Positions 36,918-48,915 of a DNA stretch of 60,256 bases are shown here, piece after piece (the stretch's first letter is position 1; each line of letters begins with the position of its first letter). Below the pieces are notes generated by a model. That model saw nothing but the letters and a program-made list of their open reading frames with translations, was not told the DNA's origin and did not search any database. Position numbers and translations under genes: made by a program. The stretch spans positions 1 to 60,256 of the forward strand of contig QIGL01000039.1 of assembly GCA_003228915.1 (NCBI GenBank), given 5' to 3'. This stretch comes from Acidiferrobacteraceae bacterium (GTDB lineage Bacteria; Pseudomonadota; Gammaproteobacteria; Acidiferrobacterales; SZUA-150).

Positions 36918-38201
36918 CTATATACTAGACAACATAGCATCTGCCTTGGCTAGCCTACTTGCCATTATTTTCATAAACATACGATTGAATTGTAATTGTA
37001 AATTATCAGATGACTGGTTCAGGGACTCTGATTTAATTTTTATCACCACTACTTTTGATGTTGTCAGGACTGTTGCAGTCCTGGGCATAGCTACACCATT
37101 GATATAGGCCATTTCTCCAAAACAATCACCTGCATTGAGCACACCCAGTAATTTACCCGCCTTCATTACCTTCATGGTGCCAGTAGCAATGACAAAAAAA
37201 GAGCTGCCCATTTTCCCTTCCGTGAGAATTTCTTCTTTGGGCTGGAATTTCCCCCAGCGGCTAATTCTTAAAGTTTCCCAAATTTCAGTTTCTGTGAAAT
37301 CATCAAAAAAATTAAGACTCTTAAGGGTGTTATATTTTTTAGTATCAGAGATGTCTTCTTCGGGCGCATCCAGGGAAATAAATATGTCTGATAAATCTGT
37401 CGCAAAATCATTCCAGTTATGATATCTCTTGTTGCGATCCCGCTCCATGGCACGTTTAACTATGCCTTCAAGCGCGCCGGGAACCTCGGTACGTAAATTT
37501 CGTATGCTTTCAGGCGTATCTTTCAGGATTTTATTAATTAGCAGCCCCTGGTTCTTTGCCTTGAACGGCAACTGGCCCGTTAACAGTTGATACAAGACAA
37601 CGCCCATAGAATAGATATCAGTTTGATGAGTAAGCTCTGCATCATTTAATTGTTCCGGTGACATATAGAAAAGCGAACCAACCACGCCCATTATCTGTGT
37701 CTGGTCGGCACCAGTCGAAAGCGCGGCGCCAAAATCTGCAATTTTAATGTCGCCCTCATCAAACATAATATTGGCAGGCTTAATGTCCCGGTGGATAATG
37801 CCCAGCTTACTGGCGTAATCAAGCGCCCGACCACATTTAAAAATGATCTCAACTGCGCGATCGATCGGCAACAAATTTTTCACGTCACAGTAAGGTTCTA
37901 GTGTGCCACCGTTGACATACTCCATGACAATATAATGAATATCGTTATCAATAGCCGCATCGTAAACTTTTATGATGTGCGGGTGTTCAAGTTTGCCAGC
38001 CAGGCTAGCCTCATTGATGAAAAATTTGCGGTATTGACTGCCAAACTGGGGATCATCCATGACTGCACTTGACGCCACTTTGATCGCTACCTCGCAATCC
38101 TGAAACGGGTCACTGGCCAGGAAAACACTGGCTGTCGTTCCCTCACCAAGTAGTTTTTTTACCCGGTACTTGCCAATTTTATTTGGTATCCCAGTATTCA
38201 T
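36918..38201 (-). CDS. Ser/Thr protein kinase with C-terminal cyclic-nucleotide-binding-like domain (ORF opens 38231)
   Basis: IHRDIKPANIMF, IADFGAAL, YMSPEQL; C-term PKEEILTEGKMGSSFFVIATGTMKVMKAGKLLGVLNAGDCFGEMAYINGVAMPRTATV = cNMP-binding fold. Confidence 0.92.
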   Translation of the reverse strand: MNTGIPNKIGKYRVKKLLGEGTTASVFLASDPFQDCEVAIKVASSAVMDDPQFGSQYRKFFINEASLAGKLEHPHIIKVYDAAIDNDIHYIVMEYVNGGTLEPYCDVKNLLPIDRAVEIIFKCGRALDYASKLGIIHRDIKPANIMFDEGDIKIADFGAALSTGADQTQIMGVVGSLFYMSPEQLNDAELTHQTDIYSMGVVLYQLLTGQLPFKAKNQGLLINKILKDTPESIRNLRTEVPGALEGIVKRAMERDRNKRYHNWNDFATDLSDIFISLDAPEEDISDTKKYNTLKSLNFFDDFTETEIWETLRISRWGKFQPKEEILTEGKMGSSFFVIATGTMKVMKAGKLLGVLNAGDCFGEMAYINGVAMPRTATVLTTSKVVVIKIKSESLNQSSDNLQLQFNRMFMKIMASRLAKADAMLSSI

Positions 38202-38567
38202 GCCAAACTTAGCCCAATAAGTTAAAACCAAAAATTAGGGGATTATAATAATTCAAAAGCTCAACACCGGTCTCTGACAACCAGGGCGCCTGTGAATAAC
38301 GAGTTAAACACGTCATTTTCAGCTAAAAACCAAAAAATCACTACTTTTCTTCAGATATATGCAGTCGCACTTAACTATATAATTAATCATCTGTTTCATA
38401 TATACCCGAGCTGCAAAACATAAACCTGGCATCCATAGATCCGTAATGTGCCTATATGCATGTATTTACAGTCAGAAGTTGCAGGAGTCGCTTTCAGGAG
38501 CTATTTTTTAGTATGTGAGGAAACCCTCAATACCACCCTATATTACTTATTTCTAATATTCGCAAAC

Positions 38568-40862
38568 ATGGAAACTGCCAGAAAAAAAATTGCCCCTAAC
38601 CCCGACGGTTCTTTACCGGTTAATTACCGCCTCGGCGAATACAGAATAAAATCTGTACTGGGCGTTGGCGGTTTTGGCATTACTTATCTTGCCAGGGATA
38701 CCAAACTGGGCGCACTGGTCGCAATCAAGGAGTATTTTCCCCAGAACATGGCGTTCAGGGGCGACCGCTACACGATTGTCCCCCGTGGCCGAGGCAATGC
38801 CACCGTTGCCCAGAATTATTCCTGGGGACTGAAAGAGTTTTTGAAAGAAGCCCGGGTGCTGGCAAAATTTAAACATCAAAATATTGTGCGAGTATTGCGT
38901 TTTATAGAGGGTAACGGTTCAGCCTACATGGTCATGGAGTATGAGAAAGGCCAGAGCCTGGCAGAATTTCTTAAAAAAAGGGGTGGCTTTTTAAATGAAA
39001 AAGATTTGCTCAATGTATTTCTGCCAATACTGAGTGGTTTGCAGGCAGTACACAAGGCGGGGATCCTGCACCTGGATATCAAACCCGACAATATTTACCT
39101 GAGATCCGATGGCCAGCCAATGCTTATAGATTTTGGCTCAGCAGGACGAGTGGCGAAAGAAAGTGATGACAAAAAAACAATTGCACTGACGCCCGCCTAT
39201 TCTGCCATCGAAAATTATCCGGACATGGGCGAAAAAGGACCATGGTCTGATATTTATTCAATTGGCGCTACTTTCTATCGCTGCATTACGGGAAAACATC
39301 CCAAGAATGCAATAGACAGATATGAAGCAAGAACTGCAAGCAAAGGTGATCCCCTGAAAGCCGCAACCAGTTTCGAGCGACCACGTTATGCCGGTTATAT
39401 CAGGGAAAGCATAGATTGGGCCCTAGAGATTAACCAGGAAGATCGCCCCCAAAATGCGCTTACTTTACAACAAGGCATTATGGGTCGAGGACGATTCAGG
39501 GAAACCAGCGACGAGAATAATTTTAATAAATTCAGATCAGGGTTTATTGGTGTGGTTAATGTCCGGGAAGAAACAAAAAAAACCGGCAGAAGTTTATTGG
39601 AAATCACAATCTTCAGCTTTCTGGTACTTGCGATTGTTGGATTTTATTTAACGACAACGGGCGCAATCAACAAAGATTCGATTCTGGCTTCAGTGAGTGA
39701 TGTAAAAAAACTCATTACAGGTTCTAGTGACGATAAAGAAGTAGAAGAAATAAAAAATAAATTTACTACGGCGATTGAAACTGCCCAGTATAATATATTA
39801 GGGATAGAACCACCGAAGAAAGATGTACCTGCCAGGAAAGTAAAGGCAGTATCAAAAGATATTTCTGTAAAAATCATTCCTGTTTTTAATCCAGATTTAA
39901 AACTAGTCAGTAAAATTAAAAACCGATATGGAAATATTCGTCATTTAAAAATCGCGGGGGAAAATAATCTGCTCCTGGCAAGTAGTGATGGTGGCAGAAT
40001 AAGAATATGGAACCTCGACAGTGGAAAACGGATGAAATCATTTTCGTACGCACGCAAGGATGCCCCGGAAATAGCAGTATCTAGTGATGGCCACCTGATT
40101 GCCATCGCTGATAATAAAAATGTACTACTGATCGATGCAATGAATTTAAAAACAATGGCAATGCTTGTCGGCCATACTGATCTGGTCACAAATATTTCCT
40201 TTTCACCGACCAATGATATGATTGCTACATCCGGTAAAGACAAGAAATTGATTATATGGAATATACATAAACAAAAAATTATAAAAAAAATATCTCTGGA
40301 TAAAATAGTCATTAGCAGTCTCGATTTTTCACCAAATGGAAAAAGACTTGCTTCGGCTGATGAGAGCGGCGGAATACGGTACTGGGAATCAAAAACAGGA
40401 AAATTACTGGCAAGTTTTCCAGTCCACAAAGGCAGGGTTACTTCAATCCTCTATTCGGGTGATGGCCGCTGGTTAGTCACTGCTGGCGACAATAAATTTT
40501 TAAAATTATTGAGTACTGGCGCAACAGTAAAAGACCAGGTGCCGGAGCGAGTACCGACTGATATTCAGAATATAATCATAACGCCTGATGGGAAATGGCT
40601 ACTGGCCGCTGGCACAAGCGCAAACATCTACATGTGGAATCTTGCTGAAAACAAGCGTATGCCGGACTTGCCAGGCCATCGTGGCGAAATTTTCTCAACT
40701 GCACTCTCTCCCGATACCAGGTTATTTGCTGCTGCCGGGTTATCCAGTGAGATTTCAATCTGGCGGTCAAATTCTACCAATGAGAAAAATCCAAAAATGA
40801 CGTTGCCAGAAAAGAAAGTTGCGAATAACAAAAAACCCGCCAAACCGGTAACTGTCAAATAA
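38568..40862 (+). CDS. Membrane Ser/Thr protein kinase with C-terminal WD40 propeller (ORF opens 38448)
   Basis: GVGGFGITYLARD, VAIKEYFPQNMAFR, ILHLDIKPDNIYL, LIDFGSAG; TM ~LLEITIFSFLVLAIVGFYL; about seven WD-like repeats. Confidence 0.92.
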   Translation: METARKKIAPNPDGSLPVNYRLGEYRIKSVLGVGGFGITYLARDTKLGALVAIKEYFPQNMAFRGDRYTIVPRGRGNATVAQNYSWGLKEFLKEARVLAKFKHQNIVRVLRFIEGNGSAYMVMEYEKGQSLAEFLKKRGGFLNEKDLLNVFLPILSGLQAVHKAGILHLDIKPDNIYLRSDGQPMLIDFGSAGRVAKESDDKKTIALTPAYSAIENYPDMGEKGPWSDIYSIGATFYRCITGKHPKNAIDRYEARTASKGDPLKAATSFERPRYAGYIRESIDWALEINQEDRPQNALTLQQGIMGRGRFRETSDENNFNKFRSGFIGVVNVREETKKTGRSLLEITIFSFLVLAIVGFYLTTTGAINKDSILASVSDVKKLITGSSDDKEVEEIKNKFTTAIETAQYNILGIEPPKKDVPARKVKAVSKDISVKIIPVFNPDLKLVSKIKNRYGNIRHLKIAGENNLLLASSDGGRIRIWNLDSGKRMKSFSYARKDAPEIAVSSDGHLIAIADNKNVLLIDAMNLKTMAMLVGHTDLVTNISFSPTNDMIATSGKDKKLIIWNIHKQKIIKKISLDKIVISSLDFSPNGKRLASADESGGIRYWESKTGKLLASFPVHKGRVTSILYSGDGRWLVTAGDNKFLKLLSTGATVKDQVPERVPTDIQNIIITPDGKWLLAAGTSANIYMWNLAENKRMPDLPGHRGEIFSTALSPDTRLFAAAGLSSEISIWRSNSTNEKNPKMTLPEKKVANNKKPAKPVTVK

Positions 40863-46336: not shown

Positions 46337-47140
46337 ATGGATCTTATCCAAATACTGGTACTGGCACTTGTGCAGGGATTAACTGAATTCCTGCCCATAT
46401 CCAGCTCAGCACATTTAATTCTGGTACCAAAATTACTTGGCTGGCAGGACCAGGGACTGGCATTTGATGTGGCCGTTCACCTGGGCACATTACTGGCAGT
46501 GGTGATTTATATGCGCGGTGAAATTCGTCCCCTTTTTGCCGACTGGGTTAAATCTATTGCAACAAGATCACACTCTGGTGACAGCCGCCTGGCATGGGGA
46601 ATCATCGTAGGAACTATACCTGCGGGCATTGCCGGTATTTTATTAAAGGACTATGTCGAATTATATTTGCGCTCACCTTTGGTTATTGCCACCACGACCA
46701 TTCTTTTTGGCCTGTTACTTTGGTGGTACGACCGTTCCAGGAAACTTAAAAAAAACGAACACCAGCTGGGTATTGGTGGTTTCCTGATAATAGGCTGTGC
46801 CCAGGCCCTGGCCCTGATACCAGGCACCTCTCGTTCTGGTATTACCATCACTGCTGCTTTGGCACTGGGCCTGACTCGATCTGCTGCCGCTCGCACATCC
46901 TTTCTCTTGTCTATTCCAATCATACTGGCTGCCGGCGGCCTCAAGACCGTGGATTTATTACGACAGGCTACACCGGTTGACTGGTCTGCAATCACAATTG
47001 GGGCAATTGTTTCATTTGCCAGTGCTTATTTTTGTATTCATTTTTTCCTGAAATTACTGGATAAAATCAGTATGCTTCCCTTTGTTATATACCGTTTAGT
47101 GTTAGGTAGTTTTCTTTTTTTGGTTTTCTTGCCAATATAG
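46337..47140 (+). CDS. uppP: Undecaprenyl-diphosphatase (BacA/UppP)
   Basis: ALVQGLTEFLPISSSAHLILVPKLLGW; LIPGTSRSGITITAALALGLTRSAAARTSFLLSIP. Confidence 0.97.
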   Translation: MDLIQILVLALVQGLTEFLPISSSAHLILVPKLLGWQDQGLAFDVAVHLGTLLAVVIYMRGEIRPLFADWVKSIATRSHSGDSRLAWGIIVGTIPAGIAGILLKDYVELYLRSPLVIATTTILFGLLLWWYDRSRKLKKNEHQLGIGGFLIIGCAQALALIPGTSRSGITITAALALGLTRSAAARTSFLLSIPIILAAGGLKTVDLLRQATPVDWSAITIGAIVSFASAYFCIHFFLKLLDKISMLPFVIYRLVLGSFLFLVFLPI

Positions 47141-47188: not shown

Positions 47189-48109
47189 TCAACTAGCAAG
47201 ATCAAAAAATAATTCTTCCTGTCCGGATATATTTACCGGTTCCAGAAAACTTAATTCAATTGCCAAAATAGTATTCGAAAATAGTTTTTCAGGCAGCTGA
47301 CGAGCCAGGTCTTTAAATAAAAGTTTACCATCTAATGGATTTTCGACTTCGATTAAAATATTTTTTTTCTGTTTTCTGATATAAATGTTTAACTGAATTT
47401 TATTACAAATCTTGTTTTCTAAACGCGCCAGATTAGCCAGCCTGGCTGATAATTGCTTCAAGTATCTTAAAATTAAACGTCTGCCTTTTGTGTTTGGTGG
47501 TAGCACCTGGTGTTGGCTAATTTGTCTTGAATAGTTATACCCGGTGAGTGTGTCTACAAAACGATCCTGGCCACGGAATACATCCAGCAACATAAGCCCT
47601 TGCTGGCCAAACATTTTGGCTATTTCTAATCTGTTTAATTCCAAAAACTGATATACCTTGATGATTCCATGTAACTTCAACCTTTGCCGTAAATGATTCG
47701 GAATAAATTGTAATTTATTTAATTGAACCCGGCCTATTTCAGTATTGATTCTCCATGGAGCAATAACATGAGACTTGCCCGGAAAACACAAGCTGGCGGC
47801 ATATTTTGCTAAAGGTTTATTCATGGCGAGACCTAATCGTGCGCGACTGCCAAGTGTTTTTTGGACTTGCCGGCAAATCATTTCCGGTGAACCGGTCCTG
47901 ATCTGAGCATGGGTAATATCGAGATAGTATTCTCTTCCAGAACTGGAGAGCCCTGAGTTTTTGACCCTGGTAAAAATATCCGCTGCCAATTCCTGCACAA
48001 GCAAACTAACATCCCTGGGCCCGGTCATTAATTCAACATTGTTGGCAGAACCAATACACAATATCGCCCTGGGCCAGATGCATTCCTGTTGCAACAAATT
48101 AACTGCCAA
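47189..48109 (-). CDS. Degenerate Y-family DNA polymerase-like protein downstream of lexA
   Basis: REYYLDITHAQIR aligns with Pol IV DEAYLDVT; RLGLAMNKPLAKYAASLCFPGKSHVIAP aligns with GVAPxKFLAKxASDxNKPNGQ; DxDxFYA N-terminus absent. Confidence 0.7.
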   Translation of the reverse strand: MAVNLLQQECIWPRAILCIGSANNVELMTGPRDVSLLVQELAADIFTRVKNSGLSSSGREYYLDITHAQIRTGSPEMICRQVQKTLGSRARLGLAMNKPLAKYAASLCFPGKSHVIAPWRINTEIGRVQLNKLQFIPNHLRQRLKLHGIIKVYQFLELNRLEIAKMFGQQGLMLLDVFRGQDRFVDTLTGYNYSRQISQHQVLPPNTKGRRLILRYLKQLSARLANLARLENKICNKIQLNIYIRKQKKNILIEVENPLDGKLLFKDLARQLPEKLFSNTILAIELSFLEPVNISGQEELFFDLAS

Positions 48110-48127: not shown

Positions 48128-48793
48128 TTAGTAAGCCCGGAACTGGCCAACAACCTGGCCCTGAATACTGACACGCTCAGCGGGATACCGCATTGGTTGC
48201 ATATTTATGTTAGCTGGTATCAAGGAAATACTGCCATCGAGATTGTTCTTAATGCGTTTTAAGGTGGCCTCCTGGGAGTCTATCAAGGCAACGACAATAA
48301 GCCCGTCCCTGGCAGTCTGGCATTTTTCAACCACGACCATATCGCCATCAAGAATACCGGCCTCAATCATAGAATCACCCTGCACCCGCAAAACGAATCT
48401 ATTGTCACTGACAAAAAACTCGCTCAAGTCAATATGATCAAGATCGGGAATGGCTTCAATTGGTTTGCCAGCGGCAATCGTGCCGGCCAGCGGCAGAATA
48501 GCGGACAAGCTCCCGGTTAAACCGTGTTGGCCACTTTCTGTATTAAATTCTGGGGGCACAGGGTCTACTAAACCCGGACGACTCAGCCGAATTCCTCGTG
48601 ATTTATTAGCGAGTACTTCTACCAGGCCCTGGTTTACCAGGGCTGTCAAATAGCGGTGAACAGTGCCGCGTGAGCGAATACCAAGAGCAGTGGCTATTTC
48701 GACCAGTTTTGGCCCATACCCATACTCCCGGATGTGGGATTTGATAAACTCGTAAGTCTGGCGCTGACGGTCAGTGAGCTGGTTTAATGGCAT
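48128..48793 (-). CDS. lexA: LexA repressor (divergent recognition helix)
   Basis: LTDRQRQTYEFIKSHIREYGYGPKLVEIATALGIRSRGTVHRYLTAL; AAGKP cleavage site; LRVQGDSMIEAGILDGDMVVVE; ATLKRI catalytic Lys. Confidence 0.93.
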   Translation of the reverse strand: MPLNQLTDRQRQTYEFIKSHIREYGYGPKLVEIATALGIRSRGTVHRYLTALVNQGLVEVLANKSRGIRLSRPGLVDPVPPEFNTESGQHGLTGSLSAILPLAGTIAAGKPIEAIPDLDHIDLSEFFVSDNRFVLRVQGDSMIEAGILDGDMVVVEKCQTARDGLIVVALIDSQEATLKRIKNNLDGSISLIPANINMQPMRYPAERVSIQGQVVGQFRAY

Positions 48794-48794
48794 A

Positions 48795-48817
48795 GACCAT
48801 ATGTTCTCATTATGTTC
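48795..48817. promoter_or_regulatory. Candidate LexA operator
   Basis: GACCATATGTTC (one mismatch to GAACATATGTTC) followed by a second ATGTTC half-site 11 bp away. Confidence 0.5.
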
Positions 48818-48915
48818 TCACTTTGTCTACATGTCCGACTGGATGAACCGGATAAGAGAACAACTCACAGATGCAATTTATATGCGACTTTCAGGAAAAG
48901 CTTGATTTGCAGCAC

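Follow-up and report, generated by a model that had tools for sequence, protein, structure and literature searches.

A catalytically dead, fingerless Y-family protein encoded with a second LexA in Gammaproteobacteria, possibly a clamp-binding modulator of polymerase access

The window, that is, the whole stretch of 60,256 nucleotides of Acidiferrobacteraceae DNA that was analysed, contains an operon in which a second LexA paralogue is followed by a short Y-family protein (short PolY) predicted to be catalytically dead. Both the identity of the protein and the assignment of a direct-repeat operator in front of the operon are, in our judgement, secure. From its retained parts and its regulation we suggest that short PolY could be an SOS-induced, clamp-binding pseudopolymerase that modulates the access of polymerases to lesions. 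We give this reading as a whole an even chance, and the modulating role taken by itself slightly less. The elements of the operon are as follows:

48802..48819, minus strand: operator GAGAACATAATGAGAACA, a direct repeat GAAC-N7-GAAC 5' of lexA (conserved; 12 genomes searched)
48809..48837, minus strand: promoter-like CGGACA-17-CATAAT (consensus scan only; such matches are no more numerous than in shuffled sequence)
48128..48793, minus strand: lexA, the second LexA paralogue, first gene of the operon, recognition region SRGTVHRYL (TIGR00498, 163.8 bits)
47189..48109, minus strand: short PolY, a catalytically dead protein of the Y family, 306 aa, encoded by the operon's second gene (ORF, homology and dN/dS of 0.225)

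The ORF of short PolY starts with TTG, and the ORF calls and coordinates bear out the 18 bp between it and the lexA stop codon reported in the initial annotation. The operon holds these two genes and nothing else; uppP (46337-47140) converges with it. The frame 5' of the start is open only as far as the lexA stop codon, and an upstream extension restoring the catalytic aspartates, which had been raised as a possible objection, was rejected: it would comprise only seven codons, none of them catalytic. PADLOC gave no matches. Elsewhere in the window, two divergent large ORFs (36918-40862) resemble protein kinases by eye, one with a C-terminal region like a cyclic-nucleotide-binding domain, the other with WD40-like repeats.

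Sequence comparison identifies short PolY as a relative of DNA polymerase IV, which is its best match in the PDB (phmmer, E 9.5e-10); NCBIfam Pol IV models match it with E-values down to 2e-13, and Pfam IMS and IMS_C match below cut-off. Its parts, all on the same strand, are arranged in this order:

48053..48082, minus strand: CIWPRAILCI, residues 10-19, palm strand beta1 (alignment with CYWPRAIIHID; strand at 16-21 in both structural models)
47933..48052, minus strand: residues 20-59, a 40-residue linker in place of a 94-residue stretch of fingers and palm (alignment; dN/dS 0.44; low pLDDT)
47909..47935, minus strand: REYYLDITH, residues 59-67, second acidic site (alignment with SVDEAFLDVTH of active relatives)
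47570..47818, minus strand: thumb-like helical region, residues ~98-180 (AlphaFold2, pLDDT ~90-97 in the 30-row model)
47240..47527, minus strand: little-finger-like domain, residues ~195-290 (AlphaFold2; dN/dS 0.13)
47207..47221, minus strand: QEELF, residues 297-301, putative beta-clamp-type motif (its Gln is the same in every aligned relative, short or full-length)

The initial annotation had the protein begin after the region of the first catalytic aspartate. This proved wrong: in the alignment, ECIWPRAILCI at the N-terminus pairs with CYWPRAIIHID of the full-length lexA-linked PolYs, these relatives start at the same point, and the strand, with its CxWPRAxxxI pattern, is kept up to Gly20, which occupies the position of the first catalytic Asp. 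The alignment confirmed the Asp to Arg replacement reported at the second acidic pair (SGREYYLDITH versus SVDEAFLDVTH in active relatives); the Glu of the pair is kept, as is the non-catalytic DxTH. All 17 full-length relatives measured have 94-95 residues between the first Asp and the second acidic pair; the eight short forms have 29-48, and the window protein, one of these, has 40. Judging from this alignment, an internal deletion has removed most of the fingers. The three catalytic carboxylates and the fingers of an active Y-family polymerase are thus missing (Asp1 to Gly, Asp2 to Arg, 40 residues versus 94), and the protein should be unable to catalyse synthesis by the known Y-family chemistry, in agreement with the earlier description of the protein as catalytically dead. 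The search for a clamp-binding motif that it had recommended turned up QEELF, a QxxLF-type motif at an exposed end, which at the sequence level would suit clamp binding. The chain stops five residues past it. In full-length relatives the motif (QMELF, QLELF or QLDLF) is followed by a conserved C-terminal tail, for example INxxYGEFTVAPATLLxRSxMPNVIAPAWRPxGHRQ, which is absent from short PolY; its loss had gone unnoticed before. The start of this tail resembles, by eye, the RecA-NT motif, which PMC6511836 describes in the tails of Y-family proteins.

The predicted structure agrees with this anatomy. AlphaFold2 gave a mean pLDDT of 76.5 from a 30-row alignment (~90-97 across residues 91-180), which includes DinBs and therefore leans to the DinB fold, and 62.4 from three close rows without DinBs. 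In both models the elements follow one another as beta1, helix, beta2, helix, beta3, thumb helices and little finger, the last being of the strand-helix-strand-strand-helix-strand type; alignment and model together confirm that, as noted initially, a thumb and a little-finger-like C-terminus remain. The best 50 Foldseek matches of each model are all Y-family polymerases, with E-values of about 1e-12 to 1e-9 (the best quoted for short PolY is 6.6e-13), and the fold check that had been proposed thus gave no sign of another family. TM-scores are only 0.30-0.46, which may result from hinged domains, low-confidence parts and the missing fingers. Sequence and fold likeness over palm, thumb and little finger place the protein in the Y-family superfamily.

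The lexA-short PolY arrangement is found in eight genomes of two orders: the window's own (G000), G004 of the same genus (its short form is 72% identical), G001 and G003 of the same family, G024 and G025 of a sister family in the same order, and G149 and G255, which belong to a different order within the class. Overlapping lexA and polY frames are seen in G025 and G024, abutting ones in G255 and G149. In each of the eight short forms the catalytic set and the fingers are missing, whereas beta1, the DxTH segment, thumb and little finger are present together with an end motif of the form Q-x-x-[LM]-[FL]; G004 (QEELL) and G003 (QMNML) have weaker versions of this clamp motif. In a class-wide sample of 370 genomes, full-length forms were many, but the short form was confined to the window's family plus G149 and G255; a scan of the genome contigs with three short sequences returned only the two known relatives and ordinary DinBs. 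The genomes bearing the short form are draft assemblies.

We estimated dN/dS by the Nei-Gojobori method, with regional values taken from single pairs. For the window and G004, short PolY has a value of 0.225 (0.154-0.323), lexA 0.112 and uppP 0.052; for G255 and G149, short PolY has 0.133 (0.088-0.190) and lexA 0.053. The gene is maintained by purifying selection and evolves faster than lexA. In the window pair, beta1 (0.14), little finger (0.13) and the clamp end (0.14) contrast with the linker (0.44), which is the least constrained region in the G255-G149 pair too (0.43). These regional values are noisy, since that of the thumb is 0.40 in the window pair and 0.06 in the other.

A polymerase gene that is slowly being lost, its frame open by chance or through its linkage to lexA, might be suspected from the 18-27% identity of short forms across genera, their long branches, and a dN/dS two to four times that of the neighbouring lexA and uppP. 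We regard such a remnant as highly improbable: dN/dS is well below 1 in two independent pairs, and open frames with the same architecture and a conserved C-terminal motif persist in eight genomes of two orders. Nor is the gene a local pseudogene, which both dN/dS and conservation in relatives contradict. The initial annotation had considered that relatives might carry a normal full-length version, implying local decay, and had asked for conservation and dN/dS; instead, the short form is what four genomes of the family and two of the sister family have. Dead, lexA-linked short forms of equivalent build are present in all eight genomes and are under purifying selection in the two pairs compared; local decay is therefore not the explanation.

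Phylogenetic reconstruction (50 proteins, junction columns left out) united the short forms and full-length lexA-linked PolYs in one clade (support 100/100), separate from DinB and ImuB. Within it the short forms are one group (97/91) with long branches; a tree with two origins is only 1.5 log units worse and is not rejected (AU p 0.48). Because of the long branches, the tree alone is also compatible with a grouping of the window protein with ImuB (AU p 0.53). Profiles separate the two: the window protein scores 85.4 bits with lexA-linked PolY, 60.7 with DinB and 21.6 with ImuB, and hhalign of the window pair gives a probability of 98.8% for lexA-linked PolY versus 1.1% for ImuB. We rejected identity with ImuB on these profiles and on the absence, beyond the clamp motif, of a RecA-NT motif and an ImuB-C domain; moreover, imuA and dnaE2 are not in the operon, imuA lying elsewhere behind another lexA. 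The kinship with ImuB proposed initially consequently gives way to a Pol IV-like, lexA-linked ancestry. Clade support, lexA linkage and the direct-repeat operator mark the short forms as a short, dead branch of the lexA-linked PolYs.

The genomes of the window's genus also contain an intact lexA-type PolY without adjacent lexA, at G000:C22:19492-20807 (L008:1548-2807, L290:2548-3807) and on C5 of G004. It groups with more distant Gammaproteobacteria on the tree, which suggests horizontal acquisition, and we rejected an origin of short PolY from this copy (AU p 0.0475). Directly 3' of it, in both genomes, lies a gene for a 136-aa protein starting MCGGVYYTI (L290:3840-4247, L291:3761-4168) with no match among Pfam families; Pfam thus gave no support to its identification as SRAP.

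The LexA encoded with short PolY is not the canonical one of the window's genome, which lies elsewhere (G000:C30). Inspection of its sequence shows that the Ala-Gly cleavage site is retained, as are LexA's Ser and Lys residues. Exact GAGAACA-N4-GAGAACA precedes the paralogue in all 12 genomes searched, versus a chance expectation of ~0.02 copies per genome for its 14 fixed bases, and direct-repeat sites of this spacing are found throughout the class close to lexA-polY operons of the full-length type. GTTC-N7-GTTC is the site type known for alphaproteobacterial LexA. The second hexamer of the promoter-like sequence, resembling a -10 element, sits inside the operator, an overlap that would fit repression. 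G000 and G004 have exactly two exact operator copies each, one before lexA-short PolY and one before the intact PolY (at C22 and C5, respectively). The initial statement that short PolY has no partner holds within the window, but not for the genome, where the intact PolY has the same operator. In G003, G024, G025, G149 and G255 the exact operator occurs only at the lexA-short PolY operon.

Two further observations concern these sites. In G038 alone, five one-mismatch copies occur (C28, C34, C58, C63 and C78), four of them GAGAACACnGAGAGCACA, and they are probably copies of a repeat element and not the sign of a regulon. Across many Gammaproteobacteria (e.g., L064-L090), full-length PolY is accompanied by a second LexA whose recognition region reads SKG/SRG-xxHR and by GAAC-N7-GAAC-type sites, as a small, separate LexA regulon.

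The distribution of operator copies bears on the idea that the target of short PolY is the SOS circuit itself (LexA cleavage or the RecA filament, for instance) and not the polymerases. In the five genomes with a single operator, the regulon may consist of nothing but LexA and the dead protein, and in G149 and G255 the pair adjoins recA (among genes reading as recA, recX and alaS). We nevertheless find such a feedback regulator quite unlikely: the tail of full-length relatives that by eye resembles RecA-NT is gone from the short forms, and the parts retained are those for DNA and the clamp.

The other polymerases available differ among genomes. A single intact PolY or DinB is present in each of G000, G004, G149 and G255, in which no ImuB was detected; G001 has DinB and ImuB besides the short form; in G003 and G025 ImuB is the only other Y-family protein; and in G024, a genome 85% complete, no other was seen. 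A complete lexA-imuA-imuB-dnaE2 cassette lies elsewhere in G001, G003 and G025. Canonical lexA-imuA without adjacent imuB or dnaE2 occurs at G000:C30 (L286:8419-9914), G255:C12 (L287:2323-3584) and G149:C46 (L288:1920-3181), and the G004 copy stops at a contig edge. The absence of ImuA noted initially is therefore true of the window but not of the genome, in which the search recommended for imuA and dnaE2 found imuA next to the canonical lexA and neither imuB nor dnaE2 adjoining it. The assembly of G000 contains just part of a single dnaE and that of G004 none, so that a lack of dnaE2 is not established there. SulA models, too, match the ImuA-like proteins of G000 and G255, though less strongly, and the gene that follows canonical lexA in G000, G255 and G149 could be an orphan imuA or else something related to SulA.

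That the short form occurs alongside several sets of partners speaks against a role restricted to DnaE2 or ImuA. This matters for the principal rival, in which short PolY, in the manner of ImuB, would recruit to the clamp a partner able to catalyse synthesis, whether the intact PolY, a DnaE-type polymerase or an ImuA complex. Its dead, clamp-motif-bearing, SOS-linked architecture does resemble ImuB, which recruits DnaE2, and G000, G149 and G255 carry imuA without imuB or dnaE2 alongside; PMC12926913 reports reduced ImuBs that lose structural elements and retain little finger, thumb and ImuB-C. The same paper has ImuB-C and the tail binding ImuA and DnaE2, and short PolY lacks both; in addition, profiles put it far from ImuB, and G001, G003 and G025 retain the short form despite a complete imuAB-dnaE2 cassette. 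On balance we consider recruitment of this kind a lesser possibility. The stand-alone adaptor first proposed remains plausible as far as thumb, little finger, clamp-type motif and lexA operon go, but not in its kinship with ImuB.

Our preferred reading, in which a pseudopolymerase modulates polymerase access, can be put as a series of steps, for which damage induction, clamp binding and DNA binding are deduced from sequence. A lexA-linked Y-family polymerase would have lost fingers, catalytic carboxylates and C-terminal tail, whereas its palm scaffold, thumb, little finger and clamp motif would have stayed. Cleavage of the adjacent LexA, stimulated by RecA, would free the direct-repeat operator, and lexA and short PolY would be induced together. 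Short PolY could then dock on the beta sliding clamp through QxxLF and its little finger, hold primer-template DNA without synthesis, and so control which polymerase uses the clamp at a lesion. In G000 the likeliest effect would be to limit or stage the access of the intact PolY, because the latter has the same operator. The intact PolY cannot be the general target, since several genomes with the short form have no intact PolY of the lexA-linked clade; outside the window's genus, the target would be the replicative or another lesion polymerase. The weak constraint on the thumb in the window pair (dN/dS 0.40) speaks against a modulator, as do the weaker clamp motifs of G004 and G003. A more speculative variant, which we hold to be unlikely, is a two-subunit Y-family polymerase, with the dead short PolY on the clamp and the intact PolY synthesising, both under a private second LexA in a two-operon regulon, and with partner-less lineages reusing the dead subunit.

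Inactive PolYs and reduced ImuBs are already known (PMC6511836, PMC12926913). In the accessible text of these sources, inactive Y-family proteins appear mainly as ImuB-type partners of DnaE2 or RecA, and proteins without catalytic residues in the 2026 survey are dispersed or in diffuse groups (PMC12926913). In open-licence literature we found no description of a fingerless, tailless PolY with a clamp motif and strict linkage to a second LexA, and to that extent the combination described here, with fingers and tail lost, the clamp motif kept and a regulon of one or two operons, appears new. Such a protein under a dedicated LexA would suggest that clamp occupation is itself an SOS output, an idea made directly testable by the two-operon regulon of the genus, in which one repressor would govern one dead and one intact Y-family protein.

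Among known systems, the nearest is the full-length lexA-linked PolY of Gammaproteobacteria (~405-420 aa), which matches DNA polymerase IV models below their cut-offs. It shares with the short form the lexA linkage, direct-repeat operator, xWPRA, thumb, little finger and QxxLF, but retains the fingers, all catalytic residues and the conserved C-terminal tail, none of which the short form has. ImuB, like the short form, is a dead Y-family protein with a clamp motif in an SOS operon; unlike it, ImuB belongs by profiles to another clade, and the short form has no ImuB-C, no tail, and no imuA or dnaE2 in its operon. According to the accessible text of PMC6511836 and PMC12926913, the inactive PolYs of the scDinB2-like, gbDinB2-like and Kyrpidia-type groups are Pol IV-type relatives from genomes without imuA, some near lexA, and differ from the short form in having a RecA-NT motif and DnaE2 and/or a stand-alone ImuB-C; finger loss is not described for them in that text (PMC6511836, PMC12926913). 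E. coli DinB (Pol IV) shares the fold of the kept domains and the C-terminal clamp motif, but in contrast to the short form it is active, complete and outside any lexA operon.
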